In this document: positions 1,057 through 34,467 of the stretch, in pieces
Layout: every line of letters begins with the position of its first letter
Numbering within the stretch: the stretch's first letter is position 1
Program-made: the position numbers and the translations under genes
Assembly: GCA_001830285.1 (NCBI GenBank)
Contig: MHYY01000088.1
Span: 1-34,467, forward strand
DNA length: 34,467 nucleotides
From: Planctomycetes bacterium RIFCSPLOWO2_12_38_17
Lineage (GTDB): Bacteria > Planctomycetota > Brocadiia > Brocadiales > Brocadiaceae
Direction: 5' to 3'
The notes under the pieces: model-generated
What the model was told of the DNA's origin: nothing
The model's input: the letters and a program-made list of their open reading frames with translations, nothing else
Databases searched by the model: none

Positions 1057-1344
1057 GAGGTAAAGTATCTCGTCAATCACAAAAATAATTTTCTTCAAAC
1101 ACTGAAGTTTTCTCTTGAAACAAAAAAGATTGTTGAGCGTTCTGTATATCTCTGTGCTGAAATCATCCTTGATATTGTAGACCTGCTTATTATAAAAAAG
1201 GGTTATCCAAAGGCATCCTCTTATAGCGACTCGATATATAAACTGGGAGACTACCATCTTGTTTCTGAAGAGTTTGCTGGTAAATTTGTATATATTGTGG
1301 GATTACGAAACTTTCTTGCTCATGATTATCAGAAAGAGGAAATT
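1057..1344 (+). pseudogene. HepT-like (DUF86) RNase toxin fragment, in frame with neuB
   Basis: The open frame from 1057 encodes a helical segment with IVERSVYLCAEIILDIVDLL, then SYSDSIYKLGD, then the signature RNFLAHDY, which matches the RNxxxHxY active-site motif of HepT toxins (DUF86) of MntA/HepT-type nucleotidyltransferase systems. Family members are about 130-145 residues. Here the N-terminus is replaced by the IS3 remnant, and the C-terminal helices after the motif are lost where neuB begins. No stop separates it from neuB, so a readthrough product is possible in principle. However, no start codon with a ribosome site is seen for the fragment, and no MntA partner lies beside it. It is best treated as a dead toxin fragment that may still supply leader sequence for neuB. 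Confidence 0.65.
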
Positions 1345-2379
1345 ATGAAAGAGATTAATATCGCAGGTCGTAAGGTTGGCACCGCTTATCCTCCACTTGT
1401 AATTGCTGAAATAGGAATTAATCATGAGGGTGATTTCAATAAGGCAATTAGGATGATTGATGATGCAGCCTTGTCAGGATGCGAATGCGTGAAGTTTCAG
1501 GCACATGTGATAGATGATGAAATGATTCCCAACAATGTCATCCCCGGCAATGCAAAAGAATCAATTTGGGATATTATGAGCCGGTGCGCTTTGACAGAAA
1601 AACAGGACAAAAAACTGAAAGAATATACGGAAGCAAAAGGAATGATTTATCTCAGTACGCCTTTCTCCCGCGCAGCGGCAGAAAGGCTGGAGAGGCTCGG
1701 GGTCACGTCATATAAAATAGGTTCAGGAGAGTGTAATAACTATCCTCTCATTGAACACATCGCCCGCTATGGAAAACCTGTCATTCTCAGTACAGGTATG
1801 AACAATATCGCAAGCGTGGAAAAATCCGTGGAGATATTACGAAGATTCAATGTGCCATACGCACTGATGCATTGCACCAGCATCTATCCCACGCCCTATG
1901 ATAGGGTCAGGCTTGGTGCCATGCAGGAGCTGCAAAATGCCTTTCCCGATGCCGTAATAGGATTGTCAGATCATTCAATGTCCATATATCCATGCATTGG
2001 TGCGGTTGCACTCGGCGCTTCCATTCTCGAACGGCATTTTACTTCCGACAAAACATGGCCGGGACCTGATATCGAGATATCGATGACACCCGATGAGCTT
2101 AAGGAGTTGATAGAGGGCAGCAGGGCTATATTTTTAGCGAGAGGCGGCGCTAAAGAAATTTTAAAGGAAGAAAAAGCAACCATAGATTTCGCCTATGCCT
2201 GTGTCGTCACAATCAGAGATGTTGCTGTCGGCGAACGATTCACAGTGGATAATATATGGGTAAAGCGTCCCGGTACTGGTGAGATCAAGGCTGAATTTTT
2301 TAATGATATATTAGGGGAAAAGGCTGCCACAGACATCCGCAAAGATACACAGATTACATGGAGTATGGTGATACCATGA
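1345..2379 (+). CDS. neuB: N-acetylneuraminate/nonulosonate synthase
   Basis: NeuB-family synthase of 344 residues, condensing phosphoenolpyruvate with an N-acyl-mannosamine-type sugar to give a nine-carbon nonulosonic acid in the cytosol. The TIM-barrel domain (about 1-275) shows EIGINHEGD, KIGSGE (E129), SDHS (H210) and ERHF (H231), the positions of the catalytic and metal-binding residues of NeuB enzymes. The C-terminal SAF/antifreeze-like domain (about 283-344) includes KRPG with the substrate-binding Arg (R308). The ATG at 1345 follows an AGAGGA ribosome site; the frame stays open upstream into the HepT fragment, but NeuB homology begins at MKEINIAG. It overlaps neuC by four bases (ATGA). 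The exact product (Neu5Ac, legionaminic acid or relative) cannot be decided from this gene alone. Confidence 0.93.
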   Translation: MKEINIAGRKVGTAYPPLVIAEIGINHEGDFNKAIRMIDDAALSGCECVKFQAHVIDDEMIPNNVIPGNAKESIWDIMSRCALTEKQDKKLKEYTEAKGMIYLSTPFSRAAAERLERLGVTSYKIGSGECNNYPLIEHIARYGKPVILSTGMNNIASVEKSVEILRRFNVPYALMHCTSIYPTPYDRVRLGAMQELQNAFPDAVIGLSDHSMSIYPCIGAVALGASILERHFTSDKTWPGPDIEISMTPDELKELIEGSRAIFLARGGAKEILKEEKATIDFAYACVVTIRDVAVGERFTVDNIWVKRPGTGEIKAEFFNDILGEKAATDIRKDTQITWSMVIP

Positions 2380-3497
2380 AAAAAATAGTCTTTTTAACAG
2401 GCACACGGGCAGATTTTGGGAAATTAAAGCCACTTATGCTTGCGGTAGACAAGTGTAAGGAGTTTGCCCTTCACATATTTGTCACCGGCATGCATATGCT
2501 CCCCCAGTATGGTCAGACTGAAATAGAAGTAAGAAAAACCGGATTTAAAAACATATTTCCATATATTAATCAATTTTCAGGTGATTCAATGGACGTAGTT
2601 CTTGCACATTCGATTCTTGGGATCGGGAGATATCTCGAATTGCTGCAATCTGACTTGCTTGTTGTACACGGTGACAGAGTGGAGGCATTGGCTGGTGCAG
2701 TTGTCGGGGCGCTGAATAACATAAGGGTGGCACACATAGAAGGCGGCGAGATTTCAGGCACCATTGACGAATCACTCCGTCATTCGATAAGCAAGCTCGC
2801 ACATATCCATTTTGTGGCGAATCAGGAAGCGAAAAAAAGACTTATTCAGATGGGTGAGTGTGAGGATGATATATATGTGATAGGTTCGCCTGATATAGAC
2901 TTGATGACAGCAGAGAATCTTCCGTCACTTCAAGAAGTAAAAAAATATTATGGGATCGATTTTGACAATTTTGCCCTTGCGATTTTTCATCCCGTTACAA
3001 CGTCTCTAGCGACATTGCAGGAAGAAGTGCGCCACTATATCAAAGCGCTCTGTGAATCAAAGCTAAACTATATTGCAATCTACCCAAATAACGATTCAGG
3101 ATCAGAAATCATCCTTGGTGCATTGAAAGAACTTGCGGCTAATAAAAGATTCAAAATTTTCCCATCGCTTCGGTTTGAATACTTTTTGGTTTTGCTCAAA
3201 AATGCCCGTTTCGTTATAGGGAATTCCAGCGTCGGCGTCCGTGAAGCTCCCTTTTACGGTATCCCCTCTGTTAACATAGGTAGCCGCCAGAAAGGCCGTT
3301 TTTTTCATCAAACAATTGTTAATACCGTGCCCAAGAAAAAGCCCATTCTGGATGCAATAAGAGCAACAGGTAATATCAAACGTATCCCATCAACTCATTT
3401 CGGTGACGGAAAAAGCACCGAACGGTTCATTAAAATATTGAAGGGAGGGAAGATATTTCAGACAAAAATCCAGAAGCATTTTGTGGATTCTGATTGA
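2376..3497 (+). CDS. neuC: Hydrolysing UDP-sugar 2-epimerase (NeuC/LegG type)
   Basis: 373-residue UDP-N-acetylglucosamine 2-epimerase of the hydrolysing class, which converts a UDP-HexNAc to the free manno-configured sugar used by NeuB. Visible motifs are the N-terminal GTRADFGKLKPL, the HGDR and HIEGGE loops that carry catalytic acids in this family, IDESLRHSISKLAH, and the C-terminal GNSSVGVREAP and NIGSRQKGR sugar-nucleotide binding stretches. The preferred start is the ATG at 2376, which overlaps the neuB stop; an in-frame ATG at 2358 inside neuB adds six residues without homology. Length is normal for NeuC. Whether the substrate is UDP-GlcNAc or a bacillosamine derivative is open, as no bacillosamine-synthesis genes lie in the window. 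Confidence 0.92.
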   Translation: MKKIVFLTGTRADFGKLKPLMLAVDKCKEFALHIFVTGMHMLPQYGQTEIEVRKTGFKNIFPYINQFSGDSMDVVLAHSILGIGRYLELLQSDLLVVHGDRVEALAGAVVGALNNIRVAHIEGGEISGTIDESLRHSISKLAHIHFVANQEAKKRLIQMGECEDDIYVIGSPDIDLMTAENLPSLQEVKKYYGIDFDNFALAIFHPVTTSLATLQEEVRHYIKALCESKLNYIAIYPNNDSGSEIILGALKELAANKRFKIFPSLRFEYFLVLLKNARFVIGNSSVGVREAPFYGIPSVNIGSRQKGRFFHQTIVNTVPKKKPILDAIRATGNIKRIPSTHFGDGKSTERFIKILKGGKIFQTKIQKHFVDSD

Positions 3498-3499
3498 AT

Positions 3500-4195
3500 A
3501 TGAACGCTATAGAAAAAAATATCCTGGCTATTATTACCGCTCGGGGTGGGTCAAAGGGGCTTCCCAGGAAGAATCTTCTTCCTTTAAGAGGCAAGCCGCT
3601 TATTCTTCATACCATTGAAGCTGCAAAAAAAACCCTGGCAATAAGGCGATGCATTGTCAGCACTGAGGATGCAGAAATAAAGGAAATAAGCCTTAGAAAC
3701 GGCGCAGAAGTTATAGACCGTCCCCTGGTTCTCGCAGATGATAACTCGCCCAGCAGTGACGCTGTCAGACATGTCCTAGAGTTGTTGAGATGCCTAGGCG
3801 AAATGCCCGAATATTTTGTTCTTCTCCAGCCTACGTCGCCATTGAGGACCGCGGCTCATTTGACAGCATGCCTTGAGCAATACTTTAGATCAGGCGCAGC
3901 GTGTGCTATAAGTGTTGTCGAAGCGGAGCATCATCCTTACAAATGCTTTACTCTTGATGGGAAATATTTGAACCCTTTTGCGGACGAAAAAAGCCTTGAG
4001 ATGCCTCGTCAAGCACTGCCGCGGGTATATCGGCAGAACGGTGCTATATATATTATGCCGACAGAACTGTTCCTTAAAAAAGGATGTTTTTATGCATCAC
4101 CGGCAATGCCGTTTATAATGGATCCCAAAGACAGTATTGATATAGACACGCCATTGGATTTCCAATTGGCAAAAATCATTGTGGAGAAGGAATGA
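3500..4195 (+). CDS. neuA: CMP-nonulosonate cytidylyltransferase
   Basis: 231-residue CMP-N-acylneuraminate synthetase that activates the NeuB product with CTP. The N-terminal nucleotide-binding loop TARGGSKGLPRKNL, the LLQPTSPLR strand, YRQNGAIYI, and the C-terminal DPKDSIDIDTPLDF (metal-binding aspartates) are all present in order. The ATG at 3500 lies two bases after the neuC stop; an in-frame TTG at 3494 overlapping that stop is less likely. The stop overlaps the next gene by four bases. With neuB and neuC it forms a complete minimal CMP-nonulosonic acid pathway. No separate acetyltransferase (NeuD type) is present. Confidence 0.92.
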   Translation: MNAIEKNILAIITARGGSKGLPRKNLLPLRGKPLILHTIEAAKKTLAIRRCIVSTEDAEIKEISLRNGAEVIDRPLVLADDNSPSSDAVRHVLELLRCLGEMPEYFVLLQPTSPLRTAAHLTACLEQYFRSGAACAISVVEAEHHPYKCFTLDGKYLNPFADEKSLEMPRQALPRVYRQNGAIYIMPTELFLKKGCFYASPAMPFIMDPKDSIDIDTPLDFQLAKIIVEKE

Positions 4196-15166: not shown

Positions 15167-16205
15167 ATGGAAAATATTCAATTAGGTAAAAGGGCCGTTG
15201 GTGGTAATATGTCTGTTTATATTATTGCTGAGGGTTGTGACAATCATATGGGGAGTCTTGAAACGGCTAAGGAAATGGTATTGCAGGCAAAGCTTGGGGG
15301 GGGCTGATGCCATTAAATTTCAACACCATCTGCCAGATGAAGAAATGCTGCCTGATATTCCAATGTCAGACAACTTTAATATGTCACTTTATGAATTTCT
15401 TAAAAAATATGCCCTTACACTTAAACAACATATTGAATTAAAATCTTATTGCGAATCCATTGGAATACAATACCTCTGCACTCCTTTTAGCTGGAAAGCT
15501 GCTCAGGAATTGAATGAAATAGGTGTTGATGCATTCAAAATAGGTTCGGGAGAAATAACAGATGTCCCAACTTTGAAAAGAATTGCCGGTTTTGGGAAGC
15601 CTATGATTGTTTCAACTGGAATGAGCACTTTTGAAGAAATTGACAGAACTTACAATGTATTAGTCGAATCAAATGTACCGTTAGTTTTAATGAATTGCGT
15701 TTCGGAATATCCTCCTGCCTATGAGGATATAAATCTAAAGGTTATAAATAAAATGATTGATCGATATCCAAAGGCGATAATTGGCCATTCAGACCATACA
15801 CCCGATTTGTACACGTGTTTTGCTGCAGTTACAATCGGCGCCAAGGTTATTGAAAAACATGTTATTCTTGATAAAAGACAGCTAGGCCCTGACCAATCTG
15901 TATCTATTGATTTTGCTGATTTATATCCTTTGGTAGAAGGTGTGCGAAAGATAAAATTTGCTTTGGGTACCACCGAGAAAAAAGTTCATCAACGGGAAAA
16001 GCAAATTCGAGAATGGGCCTTTAGGAGTTTGGTCTCTACCAAAAGTATTAATGTCGGAGAAGTAATTACCGATGACATGATATGGTCAAAAAGACCGGGG
16101 ATAGGAATACCATCGCATATGCGCAATAAGGTTATAGGTCTAAAAGCAAAAAAAGATATTCCCGCTAACAAATTATTGTCTTGGGATGATTTTGAAATTA
16201 GATAA
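15167..16205 (+). pseudogene. neuB: Second nonulosonate synthase, frameshifted at a G8 tract
   Basis: ATG 15167 (or 15164, overlapping the upstream stop) encodes MENIQLGKRAVGG, then VYIIAEGCDNHMG and AKEMVLQAKL, and runs into eight Gs (15296-15303), after which TGA occurs at 15305. With seven Gs the frame would continue GGADAIKFQHHLP and give a complete protein of about 346 residues: STGMS, KIGSGE, IGHSDHT, IEKHV and a C-terminal SAF domain with KRPG are all intact. The rest of the gene has no damage, so the break is recent, reversible by slippage, or a sequencing error. It differs clearly in sequence from the first neuB and may make a different nonulosonic acid. It is followed by a truncated neuC. 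Confidence 0.8.
15296..15303 (+). repeat. Eight-G homopolymer tract inside the second neuB
   Basis: Run of eight G residues in coding sequence, codons 44-46 of the second neuB. One G fewer restores the reading frame. Such tracts are sites of slipped-strand mispairing and are classic contingency (phase-variable) switches in surface-glycan genes of several bacteria. Whether this one is variable here is unknown. Confidence 0.85.
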
Positions 16206-32122: not shown

Positions 32123-32495
32123 TCTTCAACTTGATTTTGAGTAACTACGTAACTAATATAGAATGTATAAGTAGAAAATAATAACGTGAAATAAGGCATG
32201 AGACAATAAAAAAGTAAAAATATTTGTTCATAAGGGGTTTATCTATGGAAAGAGTTCATCTCACTCCAGAACGCTGAGATCGCAGAGGTTGTTAGAGAAT
32301 AGGCAGGAAAATTATATGGTGAAACTTTGGCTACGGAATGAGTTTTTCTTAAAGAAATAATTAATTGTTGAATACCACCTTTAGAAAGTGAGATAAAATA
32401 TGCAGTAGTCAAAAAAATAGGCTTTACTGATTTTATATAGCTAAATTATTTACTGACTGACAATAATTCTTTAAAGTAATACTTCTAGATAAAGT

Positions 32496-32528
32496 AAAAA
32501 AGGCATGTTTAACAAACATGCCTTTTTT
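32496..32528. terminator. Bidirectional rho-independent terminator
   Basis: Perfect nine-base stem GGCATGTTT/AAACATGCC with an AAC loop, flanked by six As on the left and six Ts on the right, so it can terminate in either direction. It lies 27 bases beyond the stop of the minus-strand lipoprotein gene and should end that transcript. Confidence 0.9.
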
Positions 32529-32555
32529 ATTTATATTTTTTCGACTATATAATAT

Positions 32556-33647
32556 TTATTTTGCTTGTTCATGTTGATGTTCTTTAGGAACTTCCTTTTC
32601 GCAGTCAAAGCAAAAATATGTTTTACCACATTCATGACCTTCGCCTATTTCTATTTTGCATGTTAAACAGAAGTGAGTGATTCCGCAAATGTGGTCATCA
32701 CCAACCTCCTTTTCGCAGTCGTAGCAGAAATAGGTTATATCGCATATATGTCCTGTTCCTACTTCTTCTTCACATTTTGAGCAGAAATTTGTTATATTAC
32801 AGATATGTCCATCACCAACTTCTTTTTTGCAATCTTGGCAGAAGAAAGTTAAATCGCATATATGCCCAGCGCCAACCTCTTCTTTACACTGCTGGCAATA
32901 TGTTGTGACCCCGCAAACATGTCCTTCACCACCCTCTTTATTACAAGTTGAACATTGGCGTAAAGACGGTCCTGTTTTTTCTGGTGGCAAAGCTTCAACA
33001 CTTTCTTCCTGTGGTAGCGGTGGTGCGACGGCCTCTGGTACTGGTTGAGCAGATTCAGGTGCAGGAGCAGCGGCTTCAGGTGCAGCGGTCTCTGGTGCTG
33101 GCTCGGCAGATTCAGGTGCAGGAGTAGCGGCTTCAGGTGCAGCTGGTTGAGCAGCTTCTTCAGCGGGTGCAGCAGCCTCTGGTACTGGTTGAGCAGATTC
33201 AGGTGCAGGAGCAGCGGCTTCAAGTGCAGCTGGTTGAGCAGCTTCTTCAGCAGGGGCAACGGCTTCAGGTGCAGCTGGTTGAGCGGCTTCTTCAGCAGGA
33301 ACAACGGCTTCAGGTGCAGCTGGTTGAGCGGCTTCTTCAGCGGGTGCAGCGGTCTCTGGTGCTGGTTGAGCAGCTTTTTCAGCAGGGACAGCGGCCTCAG
33401 GCGCGGCTGGTTGAGCAGCTTCTTCAGCAGGAGATGCAGCTTCCGGTGCAGCAGGTTGAGCAGCTTCTTCAGCAGGGGCAGCAACTTCCGGTGCGGGTTG
33501 AGCAGCTTCCGGTGCAGCAGTTGGTGTCTCTACTTTTACTTCAACACTTGGTGAAGTTGTTTCTTTTACTTGTGTTTGAGTAGTAACACAAGAACTTAAA
33601 AGAACTGTAAGACTTAGTAAACCCACACTTAAAAATTCTTTTTTCAT
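32556..33647 (-). CDS. Lipoprotein with Ala/Pro/Glu stalk and seven CxxC-x7-HxC modules
   Basis: 363 residues. The N-terminal signal MKKEFLSVGLLSLTVLLSSC ends in a lipobox (LSSC, Cys20) with Val at +2, suiting outer-membrane anchoring. Residues 44-226 are a repetitive Ala/Pro/Glu stalk built from units like AAQPAAPEAAxPAEE. Residues 232-360 are seven tandem modules with an exact 19-residue period (Cys232, 251, 270, 289, 308, 327, 346). Six have C-x2-C-x7-H-x-C; the seventh has C-x2-C-x7-H-x-H (Cys346, Cys349, His357, His359), so each keeps four possible metal ligands. The likely role is metal binding, probably zinc, at the cell surface or periplasm; I know no named family. ATG follows AAGGAGAA. 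It lies 47 bases after the DHH gene and ends at a strong terminator. Confidence 0.85.
   Translation of the reverse strand: MKKEFLSVGLLSLTVLLSSCVTTQTQVKETTSPSVEVKVETPTAAPEAAQPAPEVAAPAEEAAQPAAPEAASPAEEAAQPAAPEAAVPAEKAAQPAPETAAPAEEAAQPAAPEAVVPAEEAAQPAAPEAVAPAEEAAQPAALEAAAPAPESAQPVPEAAAPAEEAAQPAAPEAATPAPESAEPAPETAAPEAAAPAPESAQPVPEAVAPPLPQEESVEALPPEKTGPSLRQCSTCNKEGGEGHVCGVTTYCQQCKEEVGAGHICDLTFFCQDCKKEVGDGHICNITNFCSKCEEEVGTGHICDITYFCYDCEKEVGDDHICGITHFCLTCKIEIGEGHECGKTYFCFDCEKEVPKEHQHEQAK
32568..32954 (-). repeat. 57-bp tandem repeats encoding metal-ligand modules
   Basis: Seven in-frame units of 57 bases encode the 19-residue cysteine/histidine modules of the lipoprotein. The units have diverged in sequence yet conserve all ligand codons and the GHIC-type core, which suggests selection for the metal site rather than recent expansion. 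Confidence 0.85.
32970..33518 (-). repeat. Coding minisatellite for the Ala/Pro/Glu stalk
   Basis: Imperfect tandem repeats of about 42-45 bases, strand-biased and GC-rich relative to their surroundings, encode the Ala/Pro/Glu stalk. The units are near-identical in places, so length variation between strains is expected. The same repeats create long spurious frames on the opposite strand. Confidence 0.85.
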
Positions 33648-33694: not shown

Positions 33695-34467
33695 TTAATT
33701 ACCAACTAATTCTAGTTCTTTATGTATTTCATCCTTTATAAAATCAATTCCAATCGCTGCGAATAAATTTTGTTCTACAGTATCAGTTATTATTTTAAAT
33801 AGTGATTTTTTGTCTGTAATGTTTAAGTCATTCAGATCGATACTTCCGGCTGCCATCGTGGGATGTCCACCAGCATTCATAAATCCAAATGCCTTCTGTA
33901 ATAGTAATGCAAGATTAAGCGTTGGGTTAGTGCTTCTTGCTGATAGTTGTATTTTGTCTTTATTGACACCATAAATAAGTACGGTAGAAATTCCCTCCAT
34001 TTGTAATAATAACTCGGCTGCCTGTGGTAATGCGTCTCTGTCTGTAATATATTCTACGAAGGATGTAAGATAAGAACCTGATATTTTTTTGTTTCTTATC
34101 GCTCTCCCAATTATATCAATGGTTTCTGAATTCATGTGAATTGCTTCTATCTGATTTAATAACGCAAGATTTACTAATGGCGAGAGGTATGCTGCTGCAT
34201 CCAGGTCTTCAGTTGTAGTATTTCTTGTAAAACCACCTGTATCAGTCCTGATTCCATAACGAAGGGCCGTGGCGAGTGATGGATTGGGGACTATGCCTAA
34301 GTATCGCAAATATCTGGTCATAATGGTAGAGGTAGCGCCAATTTTTGGTGAAATTTCAACAAACTCTCCTTTGACAAGACTTAAATCAGTTTGATGATGG
34401 TCAATTATGATATTTAGGATTATATTTGGTGGTAAGATGTTATTTTTCGATGGGATGGAAGCCTCTA
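33695..34467 (-). CDS. DHH/DHHA1 family phosphoesterase, 5' end outside window
   Basis: The minus-strand frame is open to the window edge and encodes about 256 residues. IIIDHHQTDL is the DHH motif, SPKIGATSTIMTRYL the following helix, and YGIRTDTGGF carries a further catalytic Asp. The C-terminal DHHA1 domain ends with AGGHPTMAAGSI (the GGHxxAAG motif). This is the NrnA-like layout of nano-RNase/pAp phosphatase enzymes; other DHH phosphoesterases remain possible, as the first DxD motif lies beyond the window. An internal ATG at 34321 is not the start, since the DHH motif lies upstream of it. It is probably co-transcribed with the lipoprotein downstream. Confidence 0.85.
   Translation of the reverse strand, partial: EASIPSKNNILPPNIILNIIIDHHQTDLSLVKGEFVEISPKIGATSTIMTRYLRYLGIVPNPSLATALRYGIRTDTGGFTRNTTTEDLDAAAYLSPLVNLALLNQIEAIHMNSETIDIIGRAIRNKKISGSYLTSFVEYITDRDALPQAAELLLQMEGISTVLIYGVNKDKIQLSARSTNPTLNLALLLQKAFGFMNAGGHPTMAAGSIDLNDLNITDKKSLFKIITDTVEQNLFAAIGIDFIKDEIHKELELVGN

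Follow-up and report, generated by a model that had tools for sequence, protein, structure and literature searches.

Zinc-ribbon folds, represented in Pfam by Zn_ribbon_6 (PF07191) and Zn_ribbon_19 (PF14369), are characterised by C-x-x-C turns, and tandem arrays of them are already known. The retroviral-type zinc knuckle (zf-CCHC) is a short peptide with three cysteines and one histidine in the order C, C, H, C, spaced as C-x2-C-x4-H-x4-C. Several metal-binding motifs also occur together in surface or envelope proteins such as the streptococcal Pht proteins, whose motif is His-based. One study (PMC3842936) reports Zn2+ binding by Pht proteins and delivery of the ion to AdcAII, and places phtD in one operon with the zinc-uptake gene adcAII. 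The anti-sigma-G factor Gin (PDB 5n7y) is a small, single-domain protein.

Here, we describe a lipoprotein gene on a contig of an anammox planctomycete assigned by taxonomy to the family Brocadiaceae. The whole stretch of DNA that was analysed (34,467 nucleotides) is referred to as the window. The encoded protein ends in seven tandem modules that share C-x-x-C turns with zinc ribbons, but differ from these in the second ligand pair (H-x-C at short distance), in the tandem arrangement of seven and in their location in a predicted exported lipoprotein. The modules have the ligand order of the zinc knuckle, but their intervals are x7 and x1, where the knuckle has x4 twice. Unlike the Pht proteins, the array has no recognised metal-uptake gene nearby. 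While the chemistry is ordinary, an exported, order-preserving array fixed in one anammox family is unusual.

Architecture of the array lipoprotein

The features of the locus are as follows.

32556–33647, minus strand: array lipoprotein gene (363 aa), encoding a predicted exported lipoprotein with Cys/His repeats; orthologues in 31 of 33 Brocadiaceae genomes
33588–33647, minus strand: signal peptide (MKKEFLSVGLLSLTVLLSSC) and lipobox LSSC with predicted lipid-modified Cys20
32955–33587, minus strand: Ala/Pro/Glu stalk of 211 residues (21–231), with tandem DNA periods of 45, 87, 132 and 177 bp
32898–32954, minus strand: module 1, CSTCNKEGGEGHVCGVTTY
32841–32897, minus strand: module 2, CQQCKEEVGAGHICDLTFF
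32784–32840, minus strand: module 3, CQDCKKEVGDGHICNITNF
32727–32783, minus strand: module 4, CSKCEEEVGTGHICDITYF
32670–32726, minus strand: module 5, CYDCEKEVGDDHICGITHF
32613–32669, minus strand: module 6, CLTCKIEIGEGHECGKTYF
32559–32612, minus strand: module 7, the variant ending in H-x-H, CFDCEKEVPKEHQHEQAK
32495–32529, minus strand: terminator-like stem-loop of 16 pairs, just 3' of the array gene
33695–34467, minus strand: C-terminal part of a TrkA_N-DHH-DHHA1 gene, upstream, 47 bp before the array gene and cut at the window end; domains assigned from the orthologue L049

A preliminary description of this DNA had placed the open reading frame correctly without giving its strand. The start codon is preceded by a Shine-Dalgarno sequence (AAGGAG). 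Two plus-strand open reading frames (33045–33554 and 33137–33583) were rejected as genes, as they are mirror images of the repetitive stalk.

Lipoprotein status was judged by pattern (a signal peptide followed by LSSC or a variant) for the window protein and 31 Brocadiaceae representatives. The window protein has a signal peptide and a lipobox ending in Cys, which bears out its earlier designation as a lipoprotein, and lipoboxes of the LSSC, LNSC, LASC or LTSC type were found in the 31 representatives. The stalk (35% A, 21% P, 18% E) is repetitive as described before, and is longer than the 180 residues given then.

The modules follow the pattern C-x2-C-x7-H-x-[C/H] and start at residues 232, 251, 270, 289, 308, 327 and 346. 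Thus, the seven four-ligand modules in 19-residue register and the exchange of Cys for His in the last one were described accurately. Their designation as exact applies to spacing and ligands and does not extend to the sequence, since modules of one protein have on average 46% of their non-ligand residues in common. The array comprises 20 Cys and 9 His within 132 residues and is acidic (25 D/E versus 11 K/R). As each of 20,000 shuffles of the 132-residue array yielded at most two motif matches, a chance origin of the array is excluded.

Relation to described families and predicted structure

The window protein matched no Pfam or NCBIfam model at the curated cut-off, which agrees with the preliminary description, where no described family had been recognised; in NCBIfam, there was only a chance match to the stalk (5.3 bits). 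Weak matches to Zn_ribbon_6 were present in 17 of 18 members of the family and to Zn_ribbon_19 in 14 of 18. For Zn_ribbon_6 (cut-off 25 bits), the window array scored 22.1–22.2 bits and two other members 18.5 and 22.5 bits, while one further member matched with an E-value of 3.1e-7 and may pass the cut-off. For Zn_ribbon_19 (cut-off 30.8 bits), the best member reached 30.0 bits with no single stretch passing alone. Because the window protein stays below the curated cut-offs and the zinc-ribbon models match most members weakly, we describe the array as zinc-ribbon-like without assigning it to a Pfam family. The earlier term zinc-knuckle-like does not apply: the spacing differs from that of CCHC knuckles, Pfam gave no zf-CCHC match, and some distant relatives contain ribbon-type C-x2-C-x9-C-x2-C modules.

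Sequence searches of the PDB with the window array and with a profile returned Gin as the best match, over ~36 residues and at non-significant E-values of 0.06–0.13, together with chance matches. Our literature search returned no paper that joins Brocadia with a zinc ribbon and, among the literature on anammox lipoproteins and zinc, no title or abstract on this lipoprotein; in one paper on the enzymes of anammox, zinc and lipoproteins come up in other contexts only.

In AlphaFold2 models of the full array and of a three-module fragment, every C-x-x-C lay between two strands, corresponding to one predicted beta-hairpin per module. The fragment was modelled with a pLDDT of 85–90 in all five models, the full array with 90.5 in the best model. 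Because the other four full-array models reached 56–74, the rod shape discussed below should be regarded as not secured by the modelling. A Foldseek search against the PDB gave nothing significant (the lowest E-value was 0.30 with the full array and 1.2 with the three-module fragment); many of the top matches, all non-significant, were zinc-finger proteins.

Conservation within Brocadiaceae

The 19-residue spacing was exact in all 33 distinct arrays. Seven modules were found in 27 of these, eight in L049, L051, L052 (by inference Kuenenia-like) and L048, and six in two arrays, of which L039 is cut by a contig end and L042 is fused to another protein. The ligand columns of the seven shared modules, including the terminal H-x-H, were invariant in an alignment of 18 sequences. 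Outside the ligands, modules at the same position in different species shared 82% of residues compared to 46% for modules at different positions within a protein, and the best match of a module in another species was the module of the same number in 4162 of 4212 comparisons. Module 5 was the most conserved, with 91% of its non-ligand residues shared between species. Since the modules keep their positional identity across species, the repeats are not undergoing homogenisation, and constraint acts on each position separately.

Conservation of the array (72–88%) equals or exceeds that of the neighbouring cytosolic TrkA_N-DHH-DHHA1 enzyme (70–75%). The dN/dS ratio of the array was below 0.06 in the pairs for which it was computable, a rough value because Nei-Gojobori dS saturates in most pairs. 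Stalk length ranged from 95 to 278 residues among orthologues.

In L042 (1536–3287, on a contig shared with L062), a single protein combines six modules with HEAT repeats and a Big_5 Ig-like domain. As the full N-terminal part occurs in one genome only and the contig may be chimeric, we set this fusion aside as proof of a portable domain.

Distribution and genomic context

Of 33 Brocadiaceae genomes, 31 contained the array gene; the two that lack it are 83% and 58% complete. Matches with names belong to Ca. Brocadia, Jettenia and Loosdrechtia, and to metagenome-assembled Planctomycetota and Brocadiaceae, and place the host in Brocadiaceae. The array was absent from all sampled genomes of other families in the order, many of which encode hydrazine synthase. 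For this reason, we discarded the idea that the array marks the anammox process and regard it as a feature of Brocadiaceae. The draft genome that contains the window comprises 2.1 Mb and is 85% complete. A hydrazine synthase alpha domain was not detected in three Brocadiaceae drafts (G000, G006 and G013), the window's own among them, which may reflect assembly gaps. Plasmid and phage collections contained no match to the array.

In the Brocadiaceae contigs examined, the array gene follows the TrkA_N-DHH-DHHA1 gene (~490 codons) on the same strand at a distance of ~12–64 bp, with a larger gap in L048; a gene for a Pab1020-type RNA ligase often lies divergently upstream of the TrkA_N-DHH-DHHA1 gene. 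Sister families keep the TrkA_N-DHH gene, but have no array gene beside it. The simplest account is that the Brocadiaceae ancestor gained the array once, at this locus. As the neighbour is found on its own in sister families, we set its linkage to the array aside as a functional clue, and little can be learned about the array from what the neighbour does. In family f5, a small and different lipoprotein gene occupies the place downstream of TrkA_N-DHH that the array has in Brocadiaceae (L099 2996–3343, L102 988–1341).

Distant relatives and changes in the ligands

A profile search of 392 planctomycete genomes detected the module in eleven further genomes outside Brocadiaceae. Where the start of the protein is present, these relatives are again lipoproteins by pattern, with nothing obvious in common outside the array. 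We segmented 77 modules of ten relative proteins by hand and verified each string against its locus. Both ligand pairs are kept in 60 of the 77. At the H-x-[CH] pair, 23 of 54 internal modules and 9 of 10 terminal ones have H-x-H. The distance from H-x-[CH] to the next C-x-x-C is five residues in 52 of 55 cases, and between 5 and 29 residues separate C-x-x-C from the H-x-[CH] that follows it. L119 (5598–6782) and L120 (5432–6862), for instance, have C-x2-C/H-x-H modules with loops of up to 29 residues and ~5 residues between H-x-H and the next C-x-x-C.

Several departures from the ligand pattern in these relatives look like compensation. Module 7 of L110 reads C-x2-C-x9-C-x2-C, two adjacent C-x-x-C pairs occur in L111 (modules 4–5), L112 and L113 (modules 4–5), and single ligands are exchanged from C to H or from C to D in some modules. 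L121 (4371–5492) and L140 are lipoproteins whose hairpin-like repeats are nearly all without ligands: one complete module with C-x-x-C and H-x-C is flanked on either side by hairpin-like stretches that lack C-x-x-C. L121 is a weak profile match (E-value 0.003), and its membership rests in part on a repeated hairpin-like T-x-[WFY] signature judged by eye.

Taken together, the Cys-His swaps, the compensated ligand moves and the concerted ligand loss support one putative four-ligand metal site per module. With three cysteines and an invariant histidine per module, and a fourth ligand that relatives swap freely between Cys and His, the ligands most likely hold a metal and do not form disulfides. 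Sites within modules would fit chains that begin with C-x-x-C and end with H-x-[CH], as well as the retention of both pairs in the complete module of L121 and L140. The fixed spacing from H-x-[CH] to the next C-x-x-C could instead mean that sites are shared between modules.

Two of the relatives come from planctomycetes of family f84. In L111 (3372–6684) and L113 (7342–8878), the array lipoprotein gene follows genes on the same strand for a YukD-like ubiquitin fold, an E2-like protein (UQ_con) and a JAB-like protein, and the L111 group also contains a ThiF gene. The E2-like and JAB-like open reading frames of L111 were assigned by resemblance to L113, the others by Pfam.

Possible functions of the array

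We infer that the protein is exported, that the array binds zinc, that the two ligand pairs of a module form one site, that the array is rod-shaped and that it serves in binding. Each 19-residue module would form a short beta-hairpin with the C-x-x-C turn at its tip, and one tetrahedral site, most likely for a structural Zn2+, would be completed by the H-x-C that comes after it (H-x-H in module 7), giving seven sites per array. Only five residues separate an H-x-C from the next C-x-x-C, so that adjacent sites are expected to form a stacked rod. The variable and flexible Ala/Pro/Glu stalk would keep the rod away from the membrane. Because each module retains its own residues across genera, the rod would most likely offer partner proteins or envelope polymers a surface particular to each position. 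Of the readings considered, a zinc-closed rod that acts in the cell envelope as such a position-specific tether or scaffold is the most likely, and we give it about even odds. We counted the signal peptide and lipobox common to the window protein, the 31 Brocadiaceae representatives and the distant relatives in favour of this scaffold. The conserved residues could also serve folding or the packing of modules instead of partner binding.

In such a scaffold, the metal would serve folding and not supply. The converse would be a metal buffer or scavenger, periplasmic or on the cell surface, that carries several ions of Zn (or Fe, Cu, Ni) and hands them on to systems for uptake or maturation; a surface metal buffer had been suggested before. 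The abundance of Cys and His would allow it, the lipid anchor and stalk would suit a surface store, and the Pht proteins, for which such a role has been proposed, offer an analogy with their transfer of Zn2+ to AdcAII (PMC3842936). We nevertheless consider a buffer unlikely, as the copy number is nearly fixed, the modules are not interchangeable and their non-ligand residues are strongly conserved. In addition, none of the Brocadiaceae neighbours examined was recognised as a metal transporter or metal regulator, and the modules of L121 and L140 keep the hairpin-like signature mostly without ligands. In particular, a simple metal sponge is unlikely because the order of the hairpins is too strictly preserved. 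It is also rather improbable that arrays on adjacent cells, or an array and matrix polymers, pair in a metal-dependent manner and thereby aid aggregation or granule formation. Anammox bacteria do grow as aggregates, and the long stalk of varying length, the acidic array with its conserved non-ligand residues and the one unconfirmed fusion to HEAT and Ig-like domains would be in line with adhesion, but exposure beyond the outer membrane is hypothetical, and related arrays occur in other planctomycetes.

The remaining two explanations concern the chemistry of the cysteines. A redox device, either a thiol switch or rubredoxin-like iron sites passing electrons, would make use of the regularly spaced cysteines in a host with redox-active metabolism. 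This appears very unlikely, since the free exchange of Cys and His at the fourth ligand in relatives suits zinc over Fe(Cys)4 or thiol chemistry, and no redox gene was recognised beside the array gene in the contigs examined. The earlier argument that cysteines in an exported protein would be exposed to oxidation is weak because the Brocadiaceae hosts, as anammox bacteria, are anaerobes. Exported Cys-rich repeats are often disulfide-bonded, and a disulfide-stabilised repeat without metal would follow that rule; the three cysteines per module (two in the last) next to an invariant histidine, the Cys-His exchange in relatives and the apparently kept four-ligand sets of L110 (module 7), L111 and L113 (modules 4–5 of each) make it a highly improbable explanation.

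It is possible, rather than probable, that the array proteins represent a new Planctomycetota class of envelope-anchored repeat protein, with zinc-closed beta-hairpin rods and position-specific binding surfaces, which was gained once at a fixed locus in the Brocadiaceae ancestor and retained as a core part of the envelope. If so, zinc-ribbon-like arrays, best known from inside cells, would be usable as exported bacterial scaffolds. These bacteria drive nitrogen removal in wastewater plants, and the array, near-universal and strongly constrained in Brocadiaceae and absent from the sampled other anammox families, is a candidate for what sets their envelope or aggregation apart.

Other genes in the window

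Two regions of the window (1297–4195 and 15198–16205) contain two NeuB genes, a UDP-GlcNAc 2-epimerase (NeuC-like) and a cytidylyltransferase (NeuA-like), which constitute a cluster for nonulosonic (sialic-type) acid amid sugar-related and radical-SAM genes.
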